From: an uncultured Eubacteriales bacterium | Lineage (GTDB): Bacteria > Bacillota > Clostridia > Saccharofermentanales > UBA5734 | NCBI GenBank assembly: GCA_903835065.1 | Contig: CAILLO010000018.1 | Coordinates: 1-43,128 of the forward strand | DNA: 43,128 nucleotides | Reading direction: 5' to 3' | In this document: positions 3,864 through 42,912 of the stretch, piece after piece | Layout of the letters: every line of letters begins with the position of its first letter | Numbering within the stretch: the stretch's first letter is position 1 | Position numbers and translations under genes: made by a program | The notes under the pieces: generated by a model | Told to the model about the DNA's origin: nothing | Databases searched by the model: none | Seen by the model: the letters and a program-made list of their open reading frames with translations, nothing else

Positions 3864-4787
3864 ATGACCCCGCTGGACCCGAAGACGAGAAAAACCGCGA
3901 CCGTCGTCGTCGCCGTCGCCGTGTTGGCCATGGTCCCTTTCTTCGTGCTTTCGGCCGGCTTCCTGTTGCCCCCCGACCTCTCCGCTCCCGGGGCCGGAAT
4001 CGCGTCGCCGACGCCGACGACGGCTACCGGTACGTCTCCTGGATATTCCGGCCGCGACCTCTACCAACCCCTGACCGGCGACGGCGCACCTTCCCGGCCC
4101 TTGTCCGGTCGGGGCGCTTTGCTGCTGGCCGAACAGGAACGGGAATACGAGGCCGGCGCACCGACGCCGACATCGATCCCCTCGCCGAGTCCGAAGCCTA
4201 CGGCCACGCCGACGCCGGCTCCGACCGCGACTCTCGCGCCGAAGCCCACTACGGCCCCGGTCCGGACCGCCGTGGCGGTCCGCAAGGTCTCCTTCGCGCT
4301 GGATGTCCCATGCTACAGGCAGGCCGATCCGCTCTGGGCCTCGGTGCGGATGGGAAACGGGTCGTCGACGATCGCCGGGGACGGGTGCCTCGTGACGTCG
4401 CTGGCCATGGCGGAGTCCTTCCGGACGAAGACGTCGATCACGCCCGACCTCATGGTCCGGTCGCTGTCCTTCAGCGCGACGGGTTACCTGCTCCGCTGGC
4501 CGGCCAACTTCGCCTTCGCATCGACCAGCGGCTATCTGAGACAGCTCTACCACATCCTGAACGACCTGAAGCGGCCCGTCCTCGTCGGCGGCCGCAGCCC
4601 GAATTCCACGCACTGGGTGCTGGTCCGCGGGTTCAAGGACGTTCCGCTCGATGGGAAGGGCCAGCCCACCAGCCTCGCATCGGCCATGTTCCTGATCGAC
4701 GATCCGGCGTCTTCGGCCAGGACCACACTGCGGCAGTTCTTCTCGGCCTATCCGAAACTGGAATACCTCCGCTACGCCACGAATTGA
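3864..4787 (+). CDS. Membrane-anchored or secreted C39-like cysteine peptidase family protein
   Basis: A 307-residue protein with a membrane helix or signal anchor at about residues 10-32 (VVVAVAVLAMVPFFVLSAGF), a Pro/Thr/Ser-rich linker to about residue 140, then a papain-like C39_2 domain. The domain begins with DVPCYRQADPLWASV, a variant of the family opening VPyysQxdpxWa. The candidate triad is Cys175 in GDGCLVTS, His250 in THWVLVRGF and Asp279/280 in IDDPAS. The in-frame ATG at 3843 is too close to the -10. The ATG at 3864 has AGGTG at 3851-3855. C39_2 proteins are mostly uncharacterised peptidases or amidases of the cell surface. It is followed by a wall amidase with the same linker style but its own promoter. 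Confidence 0.82.
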   Translation: MTPLDPKTRKTATVVVAVAVLAMVPFFVLSAGFLLPPDLSAPGAGIASPTPTTATGTSPGYSGRDLYQPLTGDGAPSRPLSGRGALLLAEQEREYEAGAPTPTSIPSPSPKPTATPTPAPTATLAPKPTTAPVRTAVAVRKVSFALDVPCYRQADPLWASVRMGNGSSTIAGDGCLVTSLAMAESFRTKTSITPDLMVRSLSFSATGYLLRWPANFAFASTSGYLRQLYHILNDLKRPVLVGGRSPNSTHWVLVRGFKDVPLDGKGQPTSLASAMFLIDDPASSARTTLRQFFSAYPKLEYLRYATN

Positions 4788-4837
4788 ACCGGACGTCCGG
4801 ATTCCGACCGAGGTCCTCTGCCGAACTCGTGACGCCG

Positions 4838-4846
4838 TGGTAGACT
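4838..4846 (+). promoter_or_regulatory. Extended -10 promoter of the amidase gene
   Basis: TGGTAGACT: a TG one base before the hexamer TAGACT. The -35 region (CTGCCG at 4818-4823) is poor, as is usual for extended -10 promoters. It lies 43 bases before the ATG at 4890. Confidence 0.5.
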
Positions 4847-4889
4847 AGGACACGGAAACGAAACCCGGCAAGGAAACGAGGACGACATC

Positions 4890-6149
4890 ATGAAACGGCC
4901 GATCGACAGGATTTCCCGGGGTGGAAGCCCCGGATTCACCCGCTTGTCCTATGGACGCCAGCGGCGGCGTGGGCTGACGGCTCGCGGCGCCCTGGCGGCC
5001 CTCGTGCTGTGGCTCGGGCCGGCGACCGTCCTGTCGGCGATCACTTCGACGGCCGGGTCCGCCTGGTCCTCTATGTTCGGACCGGGTCGGCCCACCGCGA
5101 CGCCGACGGCCCTGTCGACGCCGACGCCCCCGGCCGACCCCACGCCCACGGGAGGGCCTTCGCCCACGGCATCCCCGACGATACCCGGAGGCCTTTCAAA
5201 GTGGCCCGCGGAGAATTCGGCCCCGGTGCTCTACACGACGGAGCTCTCCCAGTACCAGGGACGGGCTTTCGACGACCAGGCCCTGAAGGGGGTCGTCGTG
5301 GTCCTCGACCCGGGGCACGGCAGCACGCCCGGCGGTCTCCAGGAATCCGGAGCGGTCATCGGCGACATGCAGGAATCGACGATCAACCTGCAGGTCGCCG
5401 ACGTGCTGAAGGCCGTGCTCGAATCGCACGGCGCCACCGTCGTGATGACCCGGAATCCGCTCGCGGACGAGTTCCGGTCGCTCCACTACCGGATCGCCCT
5501 GACGGCGCAGACGGTCTTCGCCAAGCAGAAGGCCTTCTGGACGCGGACCGGGACCACCGGTGACGCGGCCCTGCTGGACGGTCTCGCGGCCCTGTTCCAG
5601 CCCAGCCTCACGAACAACACCGACGCCTACTCCACCGGTCGCAGCATCTTCAAGGGGCTCGGCGCCAGCGCCGACCTTCGGACGCTACTCGACCTCGAGC
5701 GCCAGCACGGGGACATGGTCTTCCTCTCGCTCCACTGCAACATCCTGCCGCAGTATCCGTCGGCGAACGGCGTTCAGGTGTACTACGCGTCCAACTCTTC
5801 CGTGTACAAGGACCAGAGCGCCACGGCGGCCGACCCGACCGTGAAGGACAAGGCTCCCATCGACCCTGCGTACCAGTTCTACGACGACGCCGCCCGGCTG
5901 CACTTCGCGAACGACCTGCACGACGCCCTCGTGGTCGCGACGCCGAGACTCAAGTCGACGAGCGGCCTGCAGGAAGTGCTCGAATCGGACTACGCCGTGC
6001 TCCGCGGGGAGAACCTCGTCTCCGCGCTGGTCGAGATGGGGTTTCTCAGCAACAAGAGCAACCTGGCCGACCTGCAGAACGCGGCGGTCCAGAAGCAGAT
6101 CGCCGTCGGCCTGGCGACGGGAATCTACGACTACTTCTGCAAGCCGTAG
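4890..6149 (+). CDS. N-acetylmuramoyl-L-alanine amidase (Amidase_3 family), wall-targeted
   Basis: A 419-residue protein that should cut the bond between N-acetylmuramic acid and the peptide stem of peptidoglycan. A basic N terminus and a hydrophobic segment (about residues 30-52) give a signal anchor, and a TPTP linker (about 65-105) spans the wall. The zinc-amidase motifs are all present: VVVLDPGHG (His143), the glutamate in the QESTINLQVAD region, VFLSLHCN (His282), and VEMGFLSN (Glu382). An insertion of about 80 residues lies between the second and third motifs. The SD is AAGGAAACGAGG before ATG 4890. Likely roles are cell separation, turnover or sporulation-like remodelling. The neighbouring C39-like, sortase and MreB genes make this a cell-envelope region. 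Confidence 0.93.
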   Translation: MKRPIDRISRGGSPGFTRLSYGRQRRRGLTARGALAALVLWLGPATVLSAITSTAGSAWSSMFGPGRPTATPTALSTPTPPADPTPTGGPSPTASPTIPGGLSKWPAENSAPVLYTTELSQYQGRAFDDQALKGVVVVLDPGHGSTPGGLQESGAVIGDMQESTINLQVADVLKAVLESHGATVVMTRNPLADEFRSLHYRIALTAQTVFAKQKAFWTRTGTTGDAALLDGLAALFQPSLTNNTDAYSTGRSIFKGLGASADLRTLLDLERQHGDMVFLSLHCNILPQYPSANGVQVYYASNSSVYKDQSATAADPTVKDKAPIDPAYQFYDDAARLHFANDLHDALVVATPRLKSTSGLQEVLESDYAVLRGENLVSALVEMGFLSNKSNLADLQNAAVQKQIAVGLATGIYDYFCKP

Positions 6150-19544: not shown

Positions 19545-20465
19545 ATGGCGATGTTCCTCCACATCCTGACCGACATCATCCTTCCCATCCTGGTCCTCGC
19601 GCTCGTCGGCTTCGTCGCGCAGAAGCTGCTGCACTTCGATATCCGCACGCTGATCCGCCTGAACCTCTACCTGTTCGTCCCCGCCGTCCTGTTCGTCAAG
19701 GTCTACCGCGCCGAGGTCTCGCTGGCCTTCGTCGGCATCGTCTTCGGCGTCGTGACGGCGGTCGTGCTGGCCATGTGGGGGCTCGGCGAGGGCGTCTCCC
19801 GGCTGCTCGGCATCCCGCGCGGCAGGCGCAAGGCGTTCACGAACTCCCTGACGTTCTTCAACAGCGGGAATTTCGGGATTCCCCTGTCCGAACTCGTCTT
19901 CGCGGCGAACCCGCTCGCGGCGACGGTGCAGATCTTCATCATGCTCATCCAGAACGTCACCGGGAACACCTTCGGCGCCTTCCAGGCGAGTTCGGGGAAT
20001 TCCGGCGGGCGCCAGGCGATGAAGAACGTCCTGAAGCTCCCCGCCCTCTACGTGCTCGCCGTCGTCGCGGTCGTGAAGGCGGCCGGCCTGACGATGCCCC
20101 CGATCGTCCTGATGCCCCTGGACTTCCTGTCGTCCGGCTTCATCGCGATGGCCCTGGTCACCCTCGGCGCCCAGCTCGCCGAGATCCGTTTCGACTTCCA
20201 CGTCCGCGACATTCTCCTGTCCTGCCTGATCCGCCTCGCCGTCGCGCCGGCGCTGTGCTACGGGATCGTGGCGGCCCTCGGTCTCCACGGCATCCTCGCG
20301 CAGTCGCTCATCCTCGGCGTGTCCACGCCGACCGCCGTCAACACGGCCATCCTCGCGCGGGAGTACGAGAACGAACACGAATACGCCTCGCAGATCGTCC
20401 TGGTCTCGACGCTGCTCAGCGTCGTCTCGATTTCGGTCGTGATCTACCTGACGAGCGGCCTCTGA
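19545..20465 (+). CDS. AEC (auxin efflux carrier) family permease
   Basis: A 306-residue integral membrane protein with about ten hydrophobic helices in two halves of five, the AEC layout. It begins MAMFLHILTDIILPILVLAL and contains the conserved turn FFNSGNFGIPLSELVF in helix 4 and the late segment SLILGVSTPTAVNTAILA. AEC carriers move organic anions such as malate or malonate or, in plants, auxin. The ATG at 19545 is preferred because AAGCGAGG lies before it and the upstream in-frame extension is not protein-like. It stands directly before the ROK-controlled cluster on the same strand, so it could import or export an acid handled there, although a separate promoter lies between them. Confidence 0.85.
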   Translation: MAMFLHILTDIILPILVLALVGFVAQKLLHFDIRTLIRLNLYLFVPAVLFVKVYRAEVSLAFVGIVFGVVTAVVLAMWGLGEGVSRLLGIPRGRRKAFTNSLTFFNSGNFGIPLSELVFAANPLAATVQIFIMLIQNVTGNTFGAFQASSGNSGGRQAMKNVLKLPALYVLAVVAVVKAAGLTMPPIVLMPLDFLSSGFIAMALVTLGAQLAEIRFDFHVRDILLSCLIRLAVAPALCYGIVAALGLHGILAQSLILGVSTPTAVNTAILAREYENEHEYASQIVLVSTLLSVVSISVVIYLTSGL

Positions 20466-20479
20466 GGTCCCGACTCCCC

Positions 20480-20508
20480 TTGACGCGTCGGCTCGCGGAT
20501 GCTATCCT
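20480..20508 (+). promoter_or_regulatory. Sigma-A-type promoter of the ROK regulator
   Basis: TTGACG at 20480-20485, a 17-base spacer, TATCCT at 20503-20508. The start point should fall at about 20515, inside the palindrome that follows. Confidence 0.75.
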
Positions 20509-20535
20509 GAATTCATCCAATCATTGGAGTAATTC
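20509..20535 (+). promoter_or_regulatory. Palindromic operator at the ROK gene start point
   Basis: A 27-base inverted repeat. The left arm is GAATTCATCCAAT (20509-20521), the centre is C, and the right arm is ATTGGAGTAATTC (20523-20535); 11 of 13 positions are complementary. It follows the -10 without a gap and covers the start point, the classical place for autorepression. A related site lies at 21780-21799. Confidence 0.75.
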
Positions 20536-20556
20536 CCCGAAAGCGGAAGGGAACGC

Positions 20557-21744
20557 ATGAGCGACAGGTCCGTCGTCCACCTGCAGAACGTCAAGGAGAG
20601 CAACCGCAACGCGGTGTTCCACCTGATCCGCGCGCACCGGCCCGTCTCGCGGTCCGAACTCGCGAAGCGGGCGCGACTGAGTCCGACGACGGTCTCGTCG
20701 CTCGTCGCCGAGCTGATCGCGGAACGGCTGGTCCGCGAGACCGGGGTGGGCGTCACGTCGACGTCCGGCCGAAAGCCGATCCTGCTCGACCTCCAGCCGG
20801 GCGGACGCTACCTGGCGGCCTTCGACGTCGACGGACACGGCTTCGTCTCGCACCTTTACGATCCGCTGTTCGACGTCCGCTCCGAGGAGACGGTCGCCGT
20901 CGCCGACTTCTCCGCCCTCGGACGACTCCTCGCCGACACGCTGGCGCGGCAGTTCGCCGCGCTCGACGCCGCCCCGGACCGACTGCTGGGCGTCTGCATC
21001 GGCCTGCCCGCCCTGCTGGACCTCGAGCACCAGACGGTGCTCTCCTCCACGGTGCTGCCTCCGGAGGCGGGCGTCGATTTTCCCGACACGCTGCGGTCGG
21101 CCTACCCCGGCATCCCCGTCCTGATCGAGAACGAATCGACGCTCAACGCCTATGCCGAACTGGTGTTCGGAGCGGGCCGCCCGGCGCGCGACCTGGTCTT
21201 CCTCGACGTCGGCACCGGCATCGGCGCCGGCATCATCACCGGCGGTCGCCGCTTCACGGGTTCCTTCGGGAAGGCCGGCGAAGTCGGGCACATGACGGTC
21301 GACCTGCACGGACCGGAATGCGCATGCGGCAACCGCGGCTGCTTCGAGGGGATGGGCGGCGTGCCCGCGCTGCAGCGCAGGCTCGCGGAGCGAGGACGGG
21401 TTTCCGCGCGCAATGGGCTGGACGCCGTGCGGGCCGACCTCGACGCGGGCGACCCCCTCGTGCGCGAAGCCGTCGCGGAGACGGCGGAGATCCTCGCGGC
21501 CGGTATCAACAATCTGGTCAACCTCGTCGACCCGCAGGTCGTCGTGATCGGCGGGGAGATGGCCCGACTCGGCGGACCGCTGCTCGAGGGCGTCCGCGCC
21601 CGGCTCCGCCGGATCGGCCTCAAGCCCGGCATCGACCGCCTGGAAGTGCGCTTCTCGAGCGTCCCGGGAAACCTCGTGACACTCGGTGGGGCGCAGGTCG
21701 TGCTCGACCGCGCGTTCGGCGGCCCGGGCGCTCCGCTCGGATAG
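20557..21744 (+). CDS. ROK-family transcriptional repressor
   Basis: 395 residues. The N-terminal winged helix-turn-helix (about residues 12-65) reads NRNAVFHLIRAHRPVSRSEL and then ARLSPTTVSSLVAELI. The ROK sugar-kinase-like domain follows, with GTGIGAGIITGG, the EVGHMTVD histidine and the zinc motif ECACGNRGCFEGM. Such repressors (NagC/Mlc/XylR type) are released by a sugar or sugar phosphate. The SD is AAGGGAACGC before ATG 20557. It is probably autoregulated through the palindrome at its promoter. A related half-palindrome stands before the aminotransferase gene 92 bases downstream, so the gene row behind it is the likely regulon. This suggests that the inducer, and perhaps the substrate of the pathway, is sugar-like. 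Confidence 0.92.
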   Translation: MSDRSVVHLQNVKESNRNAVFHLIRAHRPVSRSELAKRARLSPTTVSSLVAELIAERLVRETGVGVTSTSGRKPILLDLQPGGRYLAAFDVDGHGFVSHLYDPLFDVRSEETVAVADFSALGRLLADTLARQFAALDAAPDRLLGVCIGLPALLDLEHQTVLSSTVLPPEAGVDFPDTLRSAYPGIPVLIENESTLNAYAELVFGAGRPARDLVFLDVGTGIGAGIITGGRRFTGSFGKAGEVGHMTVDLHGPECACGNRGCFEGMGGVPALQRRLAERGRVSARNGLDAVRADLDAGDPLVREAVAETAEILAAGINNLVNLVDPQVVVIGGEMARLGGPLLEGVRARLRRIGLKPGIDRLEVRFSSVPGNLVTLGGAQVVLDRAFGGPGAPLG

Positions 21745-21779
21745 GGACGTCACGGCGGGTGCGGGACTTCGCGTCCACC

Positions 21780-21799
21780 GGATCACTCCAATGAATGGA
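21780..21799 (+). promoter_or_regulatory. Second ROK-type operator before the aminotransferase gene
   Basis: TCCAATGAATGGA at 21787-21799 differs from the core of the first operator (TCCAATCATTGGA) at two positions. Read on the minus strand, its strong half-site ATTGGAGTGATCC agrees with the right arm of the first operator at 11 of 13 positions. No convincing -10 is visible beside it, so it may act as a roadblock or govern a weak promoter. Confidence 0.6.
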
Positions 21800-21836
21800 C
21801 CGACTGAAGACCGTGAATGCGAAGGAGGAGATCGAA

Positions 21837-23114
21837 ATGGCTGGAAACGATGAGACGAAAGTGATGAACGGGGCGGGGATCGCGGACCTCGGGTTCCCGA
21901 TGTGGCCGGCGTTCGCCCCGGAGACGCTGCTGGACATCCAGGAGCCGATCCGCAACGGCAAGGTCAACTACTGGACCGGCCCGAAGGGGATGGAGTTCGA
22001 GAAGGCCTGGAACGAGTGGATCGGCGGGACGATGTCGATCTCCTGCACGAATGGCACGGCGGCGCTGCACATCGCGATCTCGAGTCTCGGCATCGGCCCG
22101 GGCGACGAGGTGATCGTGCCGTCGTATTCCTTCATCGCGTCGTCGTTCGCGATCGTCCAGGCCGGCGCGATCCCCGTGTTCGCCGACGTGACCCTCGACC
22201 ACACGATCGACCCTGTGGACGTCGCCCGCAAGATCACGAAGCGCACCAAGGGCATCGTCGTCGTGCACCTGTACGGCGTCGTCGCCGACATGGGCCCGAT
22301 CCTGGCGCTCGCGGCCAAGCACGGCCTGAAGGTCATCGAGGACTGCGCCCAGTGCTTCGGCGGCCAGTACAACGGCGTGAAGGCCGGCCTGATCGGCGAT
22401 GCGGGCTGCTTCAGCTTCTGCCAGAGCAAGCACTTCACGACCGGCGGCGAAGGCGGCATGGTCACGGTCAAGGACGAGGCGCTCGGCTGGCTGTGCCGCA
22501 GCTTCCGCGACCACGGCTACGACGTCGAGAAGCGGATGAACATGCTCGCGCTCGAGGAGAAGCTGCCCTATATCCACAACCGCGTCGGCTTCAACTACCG
22601 GATGACCGAGATCCAGTCGATCATCGGGATCAACGAGCTGAAGCGCTTCGATTCCTGGAACCTCGCGCGCCGCTTCCGCTACGCCGCGAAGTACGAGAAG
22701 GCCTTCGCGGGGCTGGCCGGCATCGCGAAGCTGCCCGTGAATACGGCCGAGCGGAAGAACGCCTACTGGTGGTACCCGATCGTGCTCGACCTCGAGGCGC
22801 TCGACACGGACGCCGACGGCATCCTGCACGGGCTGCACGACCTGAAGATCCCCTGCTACGGCATCCAGTGGCCGGAGGCCTACGAGGAGCGCGCCTACAA
22901 GGAGCTCAACGGCTTCGGGACCGCCCATTTCCCGTTCCGCAGCGAGGAATACACCGACCCGGTTGCGGTCGACTACGCGAAGGTCGTCTGCCCCACCGCC
23001 AAGTCGCTGCGCAAGCGCACCGTCTGCCTCTTCCTGCACCCGAGTTGGGAAGAGGTCCACATCGACCGCTGCATCGCGGGCCTGGTGAAGGTTCTCGCGG
23101 CCCATCGGAAGTAG
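21837..23114 (+). CDS. DegT/DnrJ/EryC1/StrS family PLP aminotransferase
   Basis: 425 residues. The ATG at 21837 is chosen because AAGGAGGAG lies just before it; the in-frame ATG at 21795 is inside the operator. Fold type I motifs of sugar aminotransferases are present: SCTNGTAALHIAISSLGIGP, GDEVIVPSYSFIASSFAI, EDCAQCFGG (with the PLP-contacting aspartate) and the Schiff-base lysine Lys198 in FCQSKHFTTGGEGG, then FNYRMTEIQSIIGINELKR. These enzymes usually swap a keto group of a nucleotide sugar or cyclitol for an amine, using glutamate or glutamine. No nucleotide-sugar genes are nearby, so a free keto-sugar or keto-cyclitol, or the reverse reaction (deamination), is more likely. First gene of the ROK-controlled row. 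Confidence 0.93.
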   Translation: MAGNDETKVMNGAGIADLGFPMWPAFAPETLLDIQEPIRNGKVNYWTGPKGMEFEKAWNEWIGGTMSISCTNGTAALHIAISSLGIGPGDEVIVPSYSFIASSFAIVQAGAIPVFADVTLDHTIDPVDVARKITKRTKGIVVVHLYGVVADMGPILALAAKHGLKVIEDCAQCFGGQYNGVKAGLIGDAGCFSFCQSKHFTTGGEGGMVTVKDEALGWLCRSFRDHGYDVEKRMNMLALEEKLPYIHNRVGFNYRMTEIQSIIGINELKRFDSWNLARRFRYAAKYEKAFAGLAGIAKLPVNTAERKNAYWWYPIVLDLEALDTDADGILHGLHDLKIPCYGIQWPEAYEERAYKELNGFGTAHFPFRSEEYTDPVAVDYAKVVCPTAKSLRKRTVCLFLHPSWEEVHIDRCIAGLVKVLAAHRK

Positions 23115-23126
23115 GCGGGGGGCGGC

Positions 23127-24491
23127 ATGAGGTCCAGCGTCTCCCGCATCGACATCACGCCGCCGGTCGGATTCCCGATCGGCGGCAACGTCCGCGCGGA
23201 CAACCTCGCGCGCGGCACCCACGACCCGCTCTACTGCACGGTCCTGCTGCTGTCGGACGGGGTCCGGCGGGCCTGCCTGCTGGGCTTCGACCTGCTGGGG
23301 CTCCACCTCGATGCGTGCCGGCTCATCCGCCGGAAGGTGGCCGGCCGCGCCGGGCTTGACGCCTCCGAGGTCCTGGTGTCCGCGACCCACACGCATTCGG
23401 GTCCGGACGTGCTGGACTTCTTCAAGGAGGGCGTCGACCCGCGTGCGACGGCGTACCTCGAGGAGGTCGCGGGGCGGGTGGCCGAGGAGGTCGCGCGCAT
23501 GCAGGACCGCCTCGAGGAGACGGCCTTCGAGATCGCGCGGACCGAGGCGACCGACCTCTCCTTCAACCGACGCATCCCGGTGCAGGGCGGCCAGGTCCGG
23601 ATGAACTGGGAACGTCCGTCGGCGGACGAGACCGCGGGTCCCCCCGGCCCGATCGACCCGGAGCTGCTCGTCCTCGTCCTCCGGGGTGCCTCCGGGGCGC
23701 CCCGCGCCCTGCTCGTGAACTTCGCGCTGCACCCCGCGGTGCTGGTCGGCGAGCGATGGCTCTGGTCCCGCGACTACATCCACTTCCTGGAGCGCAGGCT
23801 GCGACGGGAGCCGGGACTCGACGTGCCGGTCTACTTCGCGAACGGCGCCGAAGGGAATGTCAACCACCTCGACTTCCGGAACCCCGGCCGCTCCACCGGC
23901 TTCGAGGAAGCCGAGCGCGTCGGGACGCGGCTCGCCGAGCACGTGCTCCGGGCCCTGCGGTCGCCCGAACCCCTTGCCCCGCTCCACCTCGACGTGCGGT
24001 CGGCCACGGTCCGGCTGCCGCGCCGGGCCATCTCACCGCAGGAGCTGGCGGCGGCGCGCGGACTGCTCGCGCGTTCGACCGGGGCGCCCGCCTCGCTCGT
24101 CGACGGCGTCCCCGACGAGGTCTTCGCGTCGCAGGTCGTCGCGATGGCCCGCGGATCCGAGACGGCCGTGGAGACCGACCTGCAGGCGATCTCCCTGTCG
24201 CCCGGCTTCGCGATCGCGACGTTGCCCGGCGAGGCCTTCGTGGAGTTCGGACTGGCGGTCAGGCAGCGGTCGAAGTTCGCGCGCACCATGGTCTTCGGAC
24301 TCACGGACGACTGCATCGGCTACATCCCCACGTCACGGGCCTTCCGGGAAGGCGGCTACGAGATCCGGTCGGCCTCGTCCAGCCGGCTCGCTCCCGAGGC
24401 GGGCCAGCAGCTCGTGGAGGAGGTCCTTCACTTGCTGGACCACCGTCGCGGGTCGCCCGTCGGCCGTTCCGGTTGCTTCGACCTGCCATGA
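23127..24491 (+). CDS. Neutral/alkaline ceramidase-like hydrolase
   Basis: A 454-residue protein resembling the N-terminal catalytic domain of neutral ceramidases but without a signal peptide. Features are the opening SRIDITPPVGFPIGGNVRAD, GTHDPLYCTVLLL, the zinc-binding pair in VSATHTHSGPD (His88/His90), NFALHPAVLVGE with another histidine, and FANGAEGNVNHLD. The late C-terminal immunoglobulin-like domain of true ceramidases is lacking. Members found in bacterial sugar clusters have unknown substrates; an amide or N-acyl bond is likely. It starts 12 bases after the aminotransferase. Together they could release and then process an amino-sugar or amino-cyclitol; that is inference. Confidence 0.85.
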   Translation: MRSSVSRIDITPPVGFPIGGNVRADNLARGTHDPLYCTVLLLSDGVRRACLLGFDLLGLHLDACRLIRRKVAGRAGLDASEVLVSATHTHSGPDVLDFFKEGVDPRATAYLEEVAGRVAEEVARMQDRLEETAFEIARTEATDLSFNRRIPVQGGQVRMNWERPSADETAGPPGPIDPELLVLVLRGASGAPRALLVNFALHPAVLVGERWLWSRDYIHFLERRLRREPGLDVPVYFANGAEGNVNHLDFRNPGRSTGFEEAERVGTRLAEHVLRALRSPEPLAPLHLDVRSATVRLPRRAISPQELAAARGLLARSTGAPASLVDGVPDEVFASQVVAMARGSETAVETDLQAISLSPGFAIATLPGEAFVEFGLAVRQRSKFARTMVFGLTDDCIGYIPTSRAFREGGYEIRSASSSRLAPEAGQQLVEEVLHLLDHRRGSPVGRSGCFDLP

Positions 24492-24501
24492 AGACTACAA
24501 T
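24473..24501 (+). promoter_or_regulatory. Candidate promoter of the 67-residue membrane protein
   Basis: TTGCTT at 24473-24478, 17 bases, TACAAT at 24496-24501, all within the end of the ceramidase-like gene and its stop. The predicted start point coincides with the ATG at 24508, so the message would be leaderless. Confidence 0.4.
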
Positions 24502-24729: not shown

Positions 24730-27015
24730 GTGAGTGACAAGTCGACCCGATTCAGGACCGACCCGGACGTCCAGCGGCTCGTCGACGGCTACGGCAGTTG
24801 GGTGACGGACGCACCGGAAAAGGGCGCGGCCCGCATGACCCAGGCGCTGTGGCCCTATGATTCGATGTTCTCGCCCGTCCGCATCAACCGGCTGACGCTG
24901 AAGAACCGTCTGGTGATGGCCCCGATGGGCAACATCGACATGTGCGAGGAGACCGGACGGCCGAACGACAAGATGGTCCAGTACTTCCTCGAGCGCGCCA
25001 GGGGCGGCGTCGGGCTGATCACGACGGGCCTGGTCCCGATCTGCCACGGCGTCGACCCCACGGTCACCGAAGCGGACCATCTCTCGTACTTCCCGCGCAT
25101 CGACCGCACGCGCACCGTGTTCTCGGGCTGGCGCGACCTCGCGCAGGGCGTCCACGCCTACGGCAGCCGCATCTTCGTCCAGCTCACCCCGGGTCTCGGC
25201 CGCGTGGGCAACCCCCAGTGCCTGATCAACGACCTGAAGTTCCCCGTCTCCGCCTCGTTCAACCCGAACTTCTACATCTCTGCGGTGCCCTGCGTGCGCA
25301 TCTCCGACCGCAAGCTGCGGCGCATCGTGAAGAACGCCGGCCAGGCCGCCGCCGATGCAAAGGCGGCGGGACTCGACGGCGTGTACCTGCACGGGCACGA
25401 GGGATATCTGCTCGAGCAGCTCGCGAACCCTGCCTTCAACCGCCGGGTGCTGGGGCGCTACGCCGACCCGAAGGCCTTCGGCGTCGACCTCGTGAAGAAG
25501 ATCCGCGCGCGCGCCGGCGCCGATTTCCCGATCATGTACCGCATCGACCTCTCGCTCGCCCTCAACGAGACCTACGGCGAGGAAGGCATGAAGGTCGCGG
25601 CGCTGCGGAAGTTCACGAACGGCCGCACGGTCGCGGATTCGCTCGCCTACATGGAGGAGCTCGTCAAGGCCGGCGTGGACCTGTTCGACGTCGACCTCGG
25701 CTGCTACGACGACTGGTGGCTGCCGCACCCGCCGGCCGGCATGCCCGCCGGCTGCTTCCTCGACATGGCCGCGGCCGCGCGTGCGCACTTCGCAGCGAAG
25801 GGCGTCCGCTCCAACGCCGGTCAGCCCGTGCCGGTCGTGGCGGTCGGCAAGCTGGGCTATCCGGACGTCGCCGAGCAGGCGCTGCGCGACGGAAAGTGCG
25901 ACATGGTCATGCTCGGCCGCCCGCTGCTGGCCGACCCCGAGTGGCCCGAGAAGGCCTACGCGGGCCGCGTTTCGGACATCCGTCCCTGCATCGGCTGCCA
26001 GGAGGGCTGCATCAACGAGTTCGTGAACGGCGGTCACCCGCAGTGCGCCGTCAACCCGCGCACGGCGTTCGAGCACCTGCTCCCGGCCGTCCCCCCGCCC
26101 GCCGCTTCGTCCCGCCGGATCGCCGTCGTCGGCGCCGGCCCCGCGGGCGTGGTCTTCGCCGTCACGGCCGCCCGCCGCGGCCATTCGGTCGACCTGTTCG
26201 AGAAGAGCGGCAGGATCGGCGGCCGGCTCGTGCCGGGCGGCGTTCCGAAGATCAAGTTCGACATCGAGAACTACCGCCTCTACCTCGAGCGCGAGGTCGA
26301 GAAGTCGGCGCAGTCCGGCCGCCTGCACCTGCACCTCGGGGAGGCCGTCGACGCCGAGGGGCTGAAGAAGGCCGGCTACGACATGCTCGTGCTCGCCGTC
26401 GGCACGCGCGAGACCCCGCCGCCGATCCCCGGCCTGGCCGATGCGAAGTCCGTGCAGGCGACCGCGCTGCTCTCCGACCCGACGCTGCTGGGGGGCGCGA
26501 AGAAGGTCGTGGTCGTGGGCGGCGGCGTCGTCGGCTGCGAGTGCGCCTACTGGCTCAAGTACGAGAAGGGCGTCGACGTCGACGTCGTCGAGATGCTGCC
26601 CTACCTCTGCTACGGCGCCTGCACCGCCAACCGCGGGCATCTGCTGCATTACATGGAACGGGGCGGCATCCGCGCCTTCAACCTCGCCACGGTGACCCGG
26701 GTCGAGACCGGCCGGGTCCACGTGACGCGCAACGTCTCGAAGCACGCGCCGGACCCATACAACACGTGGCAGCCGATCCTGCCCGAGAACATCGAGAATC
26801 CGCTCGCGCCCAAACTGGGCAGGGAGACGCGGCAGGAAGTCCTCGAAGCCGACCTCGTCGTGGTCGCGACCGGCGGCCGGGCGGACGACGCGGTCTTCCT
26901 CGAGGCCCAGCGCATCCACGCCGCGCCGGAGGTCCACTCCATCGGCGACGGCTTCCAGGCCGGCAAGGTCCACGAAGCCACGCGCGCCGCATATCTGCTC
27001 GCGCTCGACGCATAG
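24730..27015 (+). CDS. Fe-S flavoenzyme of the 2,4-dienoyl-CoA reductase / enoate reductase type
   Basis: 761 residues, starting at a GTG with a perfect SD (AGGAGG). Three modules: an FMN-binding old-yellow-enzyme barrel (about residues 45-400; FSPVRINRLTLKNRLVMAPM), a [4Fe-4S] site in CIGCQEGCINEF (Cys420, Cys423, Cys427) plus Cys439, and a flavin/nucleotide domain with RIAVVGAGPAGVVFA (from about 463) and a second motif KVVVVGGGVVGCECAYWL (near 595). Relatives (FadH, enoate reductase, trimethylamine dehydrogenase, BaiC/BaiH) pass electrons from NAD(P)H via FAD and Fe-S to FMN and reduce a conjugated C=C bond, or run the reverse. The AcnX dehydratase genes start 11 bases downstream and would make just such an unsaturated acid. 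Confidence 0.93.
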   Translation: MSDKSTRFRTDPDVQRLVDGYGSWVTDAPEKGAARMTQALWPYDSMFSPVRINRLTLKNRLVMAPMGNIDMCEETGRPNDKMVQYFLERARGGVGLITTGLVPICHGVDPTVTEADHLSYFPRIDRTRTVFSGWRDLAQGVHAYGSRIFVQLTPGLGRVGNPQCLINDLKFPVSASFNPNFYISAVPCVRISDRKLRRIVKNAGQAAADAKAAGLDGVYLHGHEGYLLEQLANPAFNRRVLGRYADPKAFGVDLVKKIRARAGADFPIMYRIDLSLALNETYGEEGMKVAALRKFTNGRTVADSLAYMEELVKAGVDLFDVDLGCYDDWWLPHPPAGMPAGCFLDMAAAARAHFAAKGVRSNAGQPVPVVAVGKLGYPDVAEQALRDGKCDMVMLGRPLLADPEWPEKAYAGRVSDIRPCIGCQEGCINEFVNGGHPQCAVNPRTAFEHLLPAVPPPAASSRRIAVVGAGPAGVVFAVTAARRGHSVDLFEKSGRIGGRLVPGGVPKIKFDIENYRLYLEREVEKSAQSGRLHLHLGEAVDAEGLKKAGYDMLVLAVGTRETPPPIPGLADAKSVQATALLSDPTLLGGAKKVVVVGGGVVGCECAYWLKYEKGVDVDVVEMLPYLCYGACTANRGHLLHYMERGGIRAFNLATVTRVETGRVHVTRNVSKHAPDPYNTWQPILPENIENPLAPKLGRETRQEVLEADLVVVATGGRADDAVFLEAQRIHAAPEVHSIGDGFQAGKVHEATRAAYLLALDA

Positions 27016-27026
27016 GAGGTGCCCGC

Positions 27027-28310
27027 ATGGAACCGAGGATGACGCTCACCCCAGAGCAGCGGGGGATCCTGGACGGGGAGAAGGGCGAGACGCTCGCGAA
27101 GGTCATGAAAACGCTGGTGATGTACGGCGAGACGTTCGGAGCGGAGCGGATGGTCCCGGTCACGGGCGAGCACGGGCATCTGGTCACGAGCTTCGGCCTG
27201 TCGGTCATGAAGCCGCTGTACGCCCTGATGGACCAGCTGATCGCGGCCGGCGCCGTCTCGAAGCGGACGTTCACCGTCGACCCGCGCCCCATGGACCCGA
27301 ACGTGCCGGCGAACCTCCTCCAGACCGTCTTCTTCAAGGTCATGTACAGCCAGCAGGCCGCGTACGAGGCGCAGCTCGGCAGGCTCGGCCTCCTGGGCGA
27401 CGACGCCTACACGTGCGCCTGCTACCAGGACGAGGTCGGCAACATCCCGAAGCCGGGCGACGTCCTGAGCTGGGCCGAGAGCAGCGCCGTCGTCTACGCG
27501 AACAGCGTGCTCGGTGCCCGCTGCAACCGCAATTCCGGCATCCTCGAACTGTTCGGCGGCATCCTGGGGTTCGTGCCCGAGTTCGGGCTGCTGACGGACG
27601 AGGGCCGCAGGGCGTCGTGGGTCGTCGAAGTGCGGACGTCGGAAAAGCCGGAGGCGCAACTGCTCGGCAGCGCGATCGGCATGCAGGTCCAGGAGTCCGT
27701 GCCCTATATCGAGGGGCTGTCCGCGTTCCTCGGCACGGAACTGGACGAGGCGAACCGGGCCTTCCTCAAGGACATGGGGGCGGCGACCGCCAGCAACGGC
27801 GCGGTCGGCCTCTACCACGTCGACGGCCTGACGCCGGAGGCGAAGGCGCTCGGCACGTCGCTGGTGCGCCCCGACGCGAAGGTCTACGTCGTCGACGACG
27901 CCGAGCTGCGGCGCGTGAAGGCCAGCTACCCCGACCTCTGGAAGAAGCCGGACGCCAGGCCGAAGCTGTGCTTCGTCGGCTGCCCCCACCTCTCCCGCGC
28001 GCAGCTGGACGAATGGACCGGACGCCTCGAGGCAGCGCTCTCGGCTGCCGGCCGCAGGAAGGTCGCCGTCCCCACGGTGTTCACGGCCGCGCCCGCCGTA
28101 CTCGCGCGCTTCCGGGAGACGCCGGCGGCGGCGCGCCTGGCTGCGATGGGCGTCGTCCTCTCCTCGATCTGCCCGCTGATGTACATGAACAACCCGATGT
28201 GCCACGACCTGCCCGTCCTCACCAACTCCAACAAGCTGCGCACGTACTCCACGAGCCGCTACGCCACGGACGCGGAGATCCTCGCGGCTCTTTCGAAGGG
28301 AGGGCGCTGA
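27027..28310 (+). CDS. Aconitase X catalytic (large) subunit
   Basis: A 427-residue protein of the DUF521/AcnX family. It opens with LTPEQRGILDGEKGETLAKV, shows the VPVTGEHGHLVTSFG region, the active-site and cluster motifs CACYQDEVGNIPKPGD, FVGCPHLSRAQLDEW, ICPLMYMNNPMCHDLPVL and the end TNSNKLRTYSTSRY. AcnX enzymes are Fe-S hydro-lyases. Characterised members dehydrate cis-3-hydroxy-L-proline in bacteria or phosphomevalonate in archaea. Here the small swivelling domain is a separate gene one base downstream. The SD AGGAGGTGCCC is strong. No proline-racemase or hydroxyproline genes and no mevalonate genes lie nearby, so the substrate is probably something else. Confidence 0.92.
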   Translation: MEPRMTLTPEQRGILDGEKGETLAKVMKTLVMYGETFGAERMVPVTGEHGHLVTSFGLSVMKPLYALMDQLIAAGAVSKRTFTVDPRPMDPNVPANLLQTVFFKVMYSQQAAYEAQLGRLGLLGDDAYTCACYQDEVGNIPKPGDVLSWAESSAVVYANSVLGARCNRNSGILELFGGILGFVPEFGLLTDEGRRASWVVEVRTSEKPEAQLLGSAIGMQVQESVPYIEGLSAFLGTELDEANRAFLKDMGAATASNGAVGLYHVDGLTPEAKALGTSLVRPDAKVYVVDDAELRRVKASYPDLWKKPDARPKLCFVGCPHLSRAQLDEWTGRLEAALSAAGRRKVAVPTVFTAAPAVLARFRETPAAARLAAMGVVLSSICPLMYMNNPMCHDLPVLTNSNKLRTYSTSRYATDAEILAALSKGGR

Positions 28311-28311
28311 C

Positions 28312-28758
28312 ATGAAGACGTTCCACGGACGCCCCGTCGTGCCCGGTTCCGCGCGAGCCGAGGCGCTGGTCTCGCACGGCGGCGTCAACACGCTCGCGAG
28401 CTTCCAGAAGGCGCTGCTCATGAGCGACAGGAAGGCCCCCTGCTCCGACGCGAACAACCCCGACCTCTACGGGAAGCCCATGGCCCGCAAGGCGCTGTGC
28501 CTGCCACGGACCATCGGGTCGACGACCGGCGGGCTGGTCCTCTACTGCGCGACCGCGCTGCATTCCCAGCCGGCCTGCCTGCTCTTCTCGGAGCCGATCG
28601 ACAGCCTCGCCGCCGCCGGCGCGATCCTGTCCGAGGTCTGGGTGGACGGCGAGTCGATGCCGACCGTCGATGGGCTCGGCGAGGAGTTCCTCACCTACGT
28701 GAAGTCCGGGATGACCCTCGTCGTCGCGCCCGACGGCACGGTCACGGTGGAGGATTGA
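28312..28758 (+). CDS. Aconitase X swivelling (small) subunit
   Basis: 148 residues of the DUF126 family. The start FHGRPVVPGSARAEALVSHG and the loop LPRTIGSTTGGLVLYC (around Ser70) mark the phosphohistidine-like swivel domain that closes over the active site of the large subunit. In many AcnX small subunits this loop is PSGRGSxSGS; the form here (RTIGSTTGG) is a subfamily variant and may reflect another substrate. It begins one base after the large-subunit stop, with GGGAGGGCG as SD, and is followed 4 bases later by the Nif3-like gene. Confidence 0.9.
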   Translation: MKTFHGRPVVPGSARAEALVSHGGVNTLASFQKALLMSDRKAPCSDANNPDLYGKPMARKALCLPRTIGSTTGGLVLYCATALHSQPACLLFSEPIDSLAAAGAILSEVWVDGESMPTVDGLGEEFLTYVKSGMTLVVAPDGTVTVED

Positions 28759-40852: not shown

Positions 40853-41794
<942 letters not shown>

Positions 41795-41881: not shown

Positions 41882-41909
41882 ATGATTCTCGAATCATTTG
41901 AATATCAAA
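41882..41909 (+). promoter_or_regulatory. Two joined palindromes, one FabT-like, before the flavin oxidoreductase gene
   Basis: First, ATGATTC (41882-41888) and GAATCAT (41891-41897) around TC. Second, TTTGAATATCAAA (41897-41909), which differs at one position from the streptococcal FabT (MarR-family fatty-acid repressor) core TTTGATTATCAAA. They share the T at 41897. The second overlaps the -35 area of the promoter below, so repression is likely. Confidence 0.65.
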
Positions 41910-41964: not shown

Positions 41965-42912
41965 ATGAAGCTTCCCACCCTGCGCATCGCCGATCTCGCC
42001 GCCCGCCTCCCGGTCCTGCAGGGCGGGATGGCCGTCCGCATCTCCACGGCGCCGCTCGCCGCCGCCGTCGCCAACGAGGGCGGCATCGGCATCATCGCGG
42101 GCACCGGCATGGAGCCGGAGGAGCTTCGCGACGAGATCCGCAAGGCGCGCGGCCTGTCGGACGGCATCCTCGGGGTCAACGTCCTTTTCGCCGTCAACAG
42201 GTTCGCCGACCTCGTGAAGACGGCGATATCGGAGAAGATCGACCTGGTCGTCTCGGGCGCCGGGTTCTCGCGCGACATGTTCGGCTGGGGCAAGGACAGC
42301 GGCACCCCGATCGTGCCGGTCGTCTCGTCCGCGAAGCTGGCGGTGCTGGCCGAAAAGCTCGGCGCGGCGGCCGTCGTCGTCGAAGGCAAGGAAGCGGGGG
42401 GCCACCTCGGCACCGACCGCCCCATGCGGGCCATCCTGCCGGAAGTCCGCGCCGCGGTCCAGATCCCCGTCATCGGCGCCGGCGGCGTCATCGACGGCTA
42501 CGACATCGCGGAGACACTGCGGCTCGGCGCGGATGGCGTGCAGATGGGGACTCGGTTCGCCGCGAGCCTCGAATCGAACGCCTCGGAGGAATTCAAGCGC
42601 ATGTACGTGGCCGCGCGTCCGGAGGACGTGGTGCACGTGCACAGCCCCGTCGGATTGCCCGGACAGGGCCTGCGCAACGCATTCTTCGAGAGCGTCGAGA
42701 GCGGGAGCCACGTCGACGGCGAACCCTGCCAGGCGTGCCTCAAGCGCTGCAGCCACAGCTTCTGCATCATGGACGCGCTCGTGAACGCGAACCGCAACGG
42801 CGACCCGTCGAAGGCGCTGGTCTTCTGCGGCGAGTGCGTGGACCGCATCCACGACATCCTCTCGGTGCCCGACATCATCCGCAACCTGCGCCGCGAATTC
42901 GCTCTGGCGTAG
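41965..42912 (+). CDS. Nitronate monooxygenase/FabK-like NAD(P)H-flavin oxidoreductase with cysteine-rich tail
   Basis: 315 residues. The FMN barrel has PVLQGGMAVRISTAPLAAAV, NEGGIGIIAGTGM, LGVNVLFAV, VVSGAGFSRDM, VVVEGKEAGGHLG and VIGAGGVIDGYDIAETLRLG with ADGVQMGTRF. This is the 2-nitropropane dioxygenase/FabK superfamily. The last 70 residues carry CQACLKRCSHSFC and, further on, FCGECVD, a pattern that could hold an Fe-S cluster and is absent from standard FabK. The start has the SD AAAAGGAG. The FabT-like operator suggests a link to fatty-acid metabolism, perhaps as an enoyl-ACP reductase or an unsaturated-acid isomerase. It could instead be a nitronate-detoxifying enzyme. Confidence 0.88.
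   Translation: MKLPTLRIADLAARLPVLQGGMAVRISTAPLAAAVANEGGIGIIAGTGMEPEELRDEIRKARGLSDGILGVNVLFAVNRFADLVKTAISEKIDLVVSGAGFSRDMFGWGKDSGTPIVPVVSSAKLAVLAEKLGAAAVVVEGKEAGGHLGTDRPMRAILPEVRAAVQIPVIGAGGVIDGYDIAETLRLGADGVQMGTRFAASLESNASEEFKRMYVAARPEDVVHVHSPVGLPGQGLRNAFFESVESGSHVDGEPCQACLKRCSHSFCIMDALVNANRNGDPSKALVFCGECVDRIHDILSVPDIIRNLRREFALA

Follow-up and report, generated by a model that had tools for sequence, protein, structure and literature searches.

Two related sites around a ROK repressor gene as probable operators of a local ROK–DegT–ceramidase-like operon in an uncultured clostridium

The window analysed here, a stretch of 43,128 nt from the genome of an uncultured Eubacteriales bacterium, contains a row of genes that includes a ROK-family repressor, a DegT/DnrJ/EryC1/StrS-type aminotransferase (DegT) and a neutral/alkaline-ceramidase-like protein, with one palindromic site at the start of the repressor gene and a related one ahead of the aminotransferase gene (Table 1). 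The ROK domain of the first protein scores 149.5 bits with PF00480 (cut-off 22.9). Residues 6-389 match Mlc/NagC-like structures, and the full-length match to Mlc structures, which starts at residue 6, includes a helix-turn-helix ahead of the domain; residues 22-61 additionally give weak matches to MarR_2 and HTH_IclR, below threshold. Read by eye, the zinc motif C-x-C-G-x-x-G-C-x-E is present as CACGNRGCFE, and the ATP motif of the kinases is unrecognisable, the DxGGT stretch being DVDGHG in the window and GVDASG in the only other genome of the genus used for comparison (G001). With 136.8 and 150 bits against NCBIfam equivalog cut-offs of 650 and 530 for NagC and Mlc, respectively, this ROK protein would work like NagC/Mlc while belonging to neither. 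The longest open reading frame for DegT starts at 21795, inside the second site, and this start was rejected since the Shine-Dalgarno sequence at 21822-21829 and the N-termini of orthologues favour 21837. As for the ceramidase-like protein, an orthologue scores above the PF04734 cut-off and the gene neighbourhood is conserved. Further along the gene row, positions 27009-28758 encode the large subunit of aconitase X (PF04412) followed by an apparent small subunit, behind an FMN oxidoreductase fusion; no convincing ROK site accompanies these aconitase-X genes.

Table 1. Features of the ROK–DegT–ceramidase-like locus (positions in the window)
Feature	Position	Strand	Comment
Promoter-like sequence	20480-20508	+	-35 TTGACG, 17-bp spacer, TG ahead of -10, -10 TATCCT (20503-20508)
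Operator 1 (predicted), GAATTCATCCAATCATTGGAGTAATTC	20509-20535	+	Starts at first base after -10; lies across expected ROK transcription start
ROK-family repressor, 395 aa	20557-21744	+	N-terminal helix-turn-helix and ROK domain
Operator 2 (probable, weak)	21780-21806	+	Core TCCAATGAATGGA at 21787-21799; strong half-site CATTGGAGTGATCC on minus strand, 21780-21793
Shine-Dalgarno sequence of aminotransferase gene, AAGGAGGA	21822-21829	+
DegT/DnrJ/EryC1/StrS-type aminotransferase	21837-23114	+	PF01041; conserved ROK partner
Neutral/alkaline-ceramidase-like protein	23127-24491	+	PF04734, E 1.3e-4, below family cut-off; third unit member

The TTGACG-17-TATCCT sequence is the sole promoter-like match between 20400 and 21900, where 0.0 were expected, and the same arrangement of promoter and operator recurs in G001 and in homologues across the class. 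The 27-base palindrome with 11 of 13 matching arm positions (85%), which the earlier note had placed directly behind the -10 of the ROK gene, is found exactly there. It is the only 27-mer in the whole window with at least 11/13 pairs; however, a Markov copy of the window would contain about two such 27-mers, and the case for operator 1 therefore cannot rest on palindromy alone. When the short leader was shuffled, a palindrome as good as operator 1 arose at a frequency of 0.0016. Scored with a family matrix made of 17 homologue ROK-promoter sites, none of them from the window and all chosen by similarity so that its P values are optimistic, operator 1 reaches ~31-32 bits and ranks first in the window, the next unrelated place reaching 9.8. 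A weak match to this matrix at 24496, which shares bases with the beginning of a small open reading frame, was set aside.

The second site, which had been claimed to lie just before the aminotransferase start, has its core within the 92-bp gap that separates the ROK stop (21744) from the DegT ATG (21837), and the site ends 32 bp ahead of this ATG. The reported agreement of the half-sites at 11 of 13 positions holds for the two cores on the plus strand and even rises to 12/13 on the minus strand. The AT-rich outer arms of operator 2 are mostly lost, and its family-matrix score is only ~7 bits versus ~31 for operator 1, a value that four places equalled or exceeded when 400 kb of the same genome (20 stretches) served as control. 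Shuffling of the ROK–DegT gap reproduced the score of the operator 2 core in 0.02% of the copies and its matrix score in 0.17%. The promoter scan of 20400-21900 revealed no recognisable promoter belonging to operator 2. A terminator hairpin upstream of it, of the sort present in two relatives (G229 and G314), was also sought in the window; the hairpin there lacks a U run and is no stronger than those of shuffled sequences.

Both sites are rare in their own genome of 2.51 Mb. With up to one mismatch, WTCCAATNANTGGA has only two occurrences besides the pair in the window, neither of which is convincing as an operator: C59:11266 lies among TCCATT repeats and C64:17211 is solitary. The half-site CATTGGAGTRATNC has two exact matches in the genome, one per operator (on the minus strand in operator 2), and no match anywhere in the 2.51 Mb with one mismatch; this pattern was composed after both sites had been seen and hence describes rather than tests. 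In the genome-wide scans, the two window sites are the only strong relatives of each other, and the many equally good sites at random positions that would have spoken against a regulon did not appear. The assertion that the sites are hard to explain by chance is borne out by their rarity and by the gap shuffles, but not by palindromy alone. Two observations were made beside these scans. On the contig of the C59 match, several TCCATT/AATGGA repeats (L004, 1380-1540) lie between an ABC-transporter ATPase gene and a divergent gene, whose protein resembles an AbiEi-type antitoxin and whose operators these repeats perhaps are. In the window, a further AT-rich near-palindrome, TTCAAATGATTCGAGAA, lies on the minus strand at 41884-41906, between a gene ending at 41794 and one that starts at 41965 and looks by eye like a nitronate monooxygenase gene; this near-palindrome agrees with the ROK core at 11/13 positions and has another symmetry.

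The comparison within the genus rests on a single genome, G001 (uncultured Clostridiales bacterium LaPlata_bin-1746), the only one that the contig scan gave. There, ATTATTCCAGTCATTGGAATAAT stands directly behind the TTGACG/TATCGT promoter of a ROK gene whose product is 55% identical, and is the only good match in that genome. The G001 DegT is 87% identical and follows ROK nearly without a gap, and no second operator was found at this locus. In more distant ROK homologues (35-42% identity), which come from many families of the class, a site of this kind immediately follows the TTGACA/TATAAT of the ROK gene and scores ~12-36 bits in a leave-one-out matrix, and the class-wide operator stands at the promoter of ROK or of the first gene. 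A palindromic site at its own promoter, kept in orthologues, is therefore found for the window ROK, and the lack of conservation upstream of orthologues that would have contradicted the earlier note was looked for and not seen in G001 or in most class homologues. DegT orthologues with 69-76% identity occur in 21 of 390 other class genomes, 16 of which have a ROK gene close by on the same contig; the two genes are kept together class-wide, often with the ceramidase-like gene.

A second copy of the site upstream of DegT is also found in five of these relatives, with 33.1 (G229), 32.9 (G256), 27.0 (G520), 25.0 (G220) and 24.0 (G314) bits, 20-32 bp ahead of the ATG and hence at the position of operator 2; G400 has a site of 26 bits immediately beyond its ROK gene, at the contig end. 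Other copies precede the ceramidase-like gene (G314, G206, G235 and G198). The counterpart of operator 2 is absent in G001 and in the group of G279, G304, G445 and G370. Of the operator pair proposed at the outset, the first member thus stands as strong and kept, and the second as weak and missing in the genus relative. At two of the loci (L175 in G229 and L174 in G314), a strong hairpin that resembles a terminator and has a T run stops ~6-8 bases short of the DegT operator and leaves no obvious space for a normal DegT promoter. In G199, a 30-bit operator ahead of DegT (L236, 551) lies behind a promoter-like sequence, and the stretches near DegT in this 83% complete genome revealed no ROK of the matching helix type, which counts against an assignment to ROK. 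Elsewhere in the phylum, DegT relatives have 55-56% identity; two of them, outside the class, lie beside a ROK and a ceramidase-like gene (L240 and L241, from G593 and G634) in the order ceramidase-ROK-DegT, with a DegT identity of 55%, the helix SPTTVGNAV/GAAV and no matching operator, and may represent a sister regulon with another motif. Exact matches to the core in G004 and G019 have no ROK among the surrounding open reading frames, the former lying within a coding gene. Only one exact 20-mer match turned up in 391 class genomes (G465), and it likewise falls within a coding gene.

The best evidence here that ROK itself would read the motif comes from its recognition helix. Of 54 ROK genes, 24 encode the helix S(P/A)T(T/P)(V/I)(S/Y)xL, and 21 of these 24 carry the site at the promoter of the ROK gene itself, compared with 0 of the 30 with other helices (Fisher 4e-12, an optimistic value since the rule was framed after the table had been seen and the helix is also a clade marker). 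In the three exceptions, the site stands before DegT (G220), the ceramidase-like gene (G198) or an upstream gene (G243). Binding by the window ROK is predicted from this co-variation and from the gene association. Together with the conserved unit and positions, they support the claim that the sites tie the repressor to the gene row.

We therefore propose, with a probability of roughly 0.85, that the ROK protein uses the two palindromes on either side of its gene as operators and acts as an autoregulated local repressor of the ROK–DegT–ceramidase-like operon. The two sites, their rarity, their conserved positions, the gene unit and the co-occurrence with the helix, all read from sequence, very probably reflect a real self-controlled operon of a well-known kind; binding, the sign of the regulation and the inducer we infer. 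Without inducer, ROK, presumably as a dimer or a higher oligomer, would sit on operator 1 in the position of a steric repressor. As this site covers the DNA between the -10 and the expected transcription start and reaches beyond the latter, RNA polymerase would be blocked and transcription of ROK, DegT and the ceramidase-like gene would remain low (autorepression). Operator 2 in the DegT leader may provide a second, weaker contact that tightens the repression of the enzyme genes; having no promoter of its own, it would act by roadblock or looping, and its counterpart in relatives has full strength. ROK would be released by a sugar-type ligand inside the cell, which may be derived from an amino sugar or an aminocyclitol.

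The main rival to this model holds that operator 1 alone works, by plain autoregulation, and that operator 2 is a decayed, inert remnant of an ancestral DegT operator. We consider it unlikely, if worth keeping in mind: the loss of most of the outer AT-rich arms, the score of ~7 bits, the lack of a promoter and the missing second site in the genus relative all fit such a decay, but the left half of operator 2 keeps an exact CATTGGAGTRATNC, found elsewhere in the genome only at operator 1, and the sparing of one complete half-site is not expected under full decay. Operator 2 is probably a real, weakened second operator, and it may still be working in this genome. Far less probable is a signal in the RNA leader, i.e. 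a hairpin or binding site at the 5' end of the transcript instead of a DNA operator. Homologous elements do occur on the same strand 20-45 nt ahead of start codons, some are preceded by an intrinsic-terminator-like hairpin and a short hairpin can form from the element itself. However, the element at ROK promoters begins 0-3 nt after the -10. Most of its left arm therefore precedes the expected 5' end of the transcript and would not be part of the RNA. Moreover, the inner arms of G279, G304 and G445 no longer pair (AAAG versus TGGA) while the element is still conserved, and its presence tracks the ROK recognition helix. Least probable of all are chance or sites of another, unlinked regulator. 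A Markov copy of the window would indeed hold about two 27-mers with 11/13 pairs, but position and sequence are kept in many families and tied to one ROK type, and the sites are nearly absent elsewhere in the genome.

The proposed autoregulated operon shares several traits with known ROK systems. Similarity to Mlc/NagC-type regulators (E. coli Mlc, PDB 1z6r, 3bp8 and 9srt) extends over residues 6-389, with the helix-turn-helix followed by the ROK domain, the zinc-type cysteine motif and a palindromic operator with AT-rich arms at promoters; in contrast, the window ROK stays under the NCBIfam cut-offs for Mlc and NagC, its predicted target enzymes are different and it would control a single operon at its own locus instead of a global regulon. 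The XylR-type ROK repressors of Firmicutes are reported to recognise GTTT-N7-AAAC (PMC9104551), likewise a broken palindrome that has A/T-rich edges and lies at a sugar-operon promoter, whereas the window core is TCCA-N5-TGGA or MAGYCATTGGASAAAT and no xylose genes were seen at the window locus. ROK regulators usually have palindromic operators that overlap promoter elements and usually control their own genes (PMC9599254, PMC3750489). NagR of Bifidobacterium, whose repression is released by GlcNAc and its derivatives (PMC9599254), and the ROK regulons of Thermotoga (PMC3750489) resemble the present case in operators that overlap promoter elements and in a ROK gene inside its own regulon, and differ in gene content, with a DegT aminotransferase and a ceramidase-like gene in the window. 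RokB of Streptomyces coelicolor, with suggested targets in amino-acid metabolism (PMC4856308), is also associated with a site at its own promoter plus further sites at target genes, but its motif is centred on TVCVT and differs from that of the window. We found no literature joining at least three of the terms ROK-family, DegT, ceramidase and regulon; as the main ROK operator papers were outside the coverage of this search, the novelty of the motif is unproven.

Related loci encode PIG-L, an amidohydrolase scoring NagA-like, a weakly NagB-like protein and Gfo/Idh, which suggests an amino sugar or an aminocyclitol as substrate. These genes adjoin DegT in L171 (86-3921), L181 and L187; in the last, two small proteins without Pfam match are also encoded beside DegT (4552-5465). 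A broader proposal, to which we give about as much belief as doubt, is that of a ROK regulon which extends over many clostridial families, has its own operator (about ATTAATMMAGYCATTGGASAAAT) and controls an undescribed pathway centred on the highly conserved DegT and the hydrolase that resembles ceramidases; the further enzymes present at the locus in some lineages suggest that an unusual amino sugar or aminocyclitol is broken down.

To conclude, two palindromes noticed by eye lead to a regulon that can be tested, since its operator and protein partner are defined and its target genes form a fixed set in many uncultured clostridia. Besides, the regulator offers a way to find the substrate of enzymes that are as yet uncharacterised, as the ligand that releases it should be this substrate or an early intermediate.
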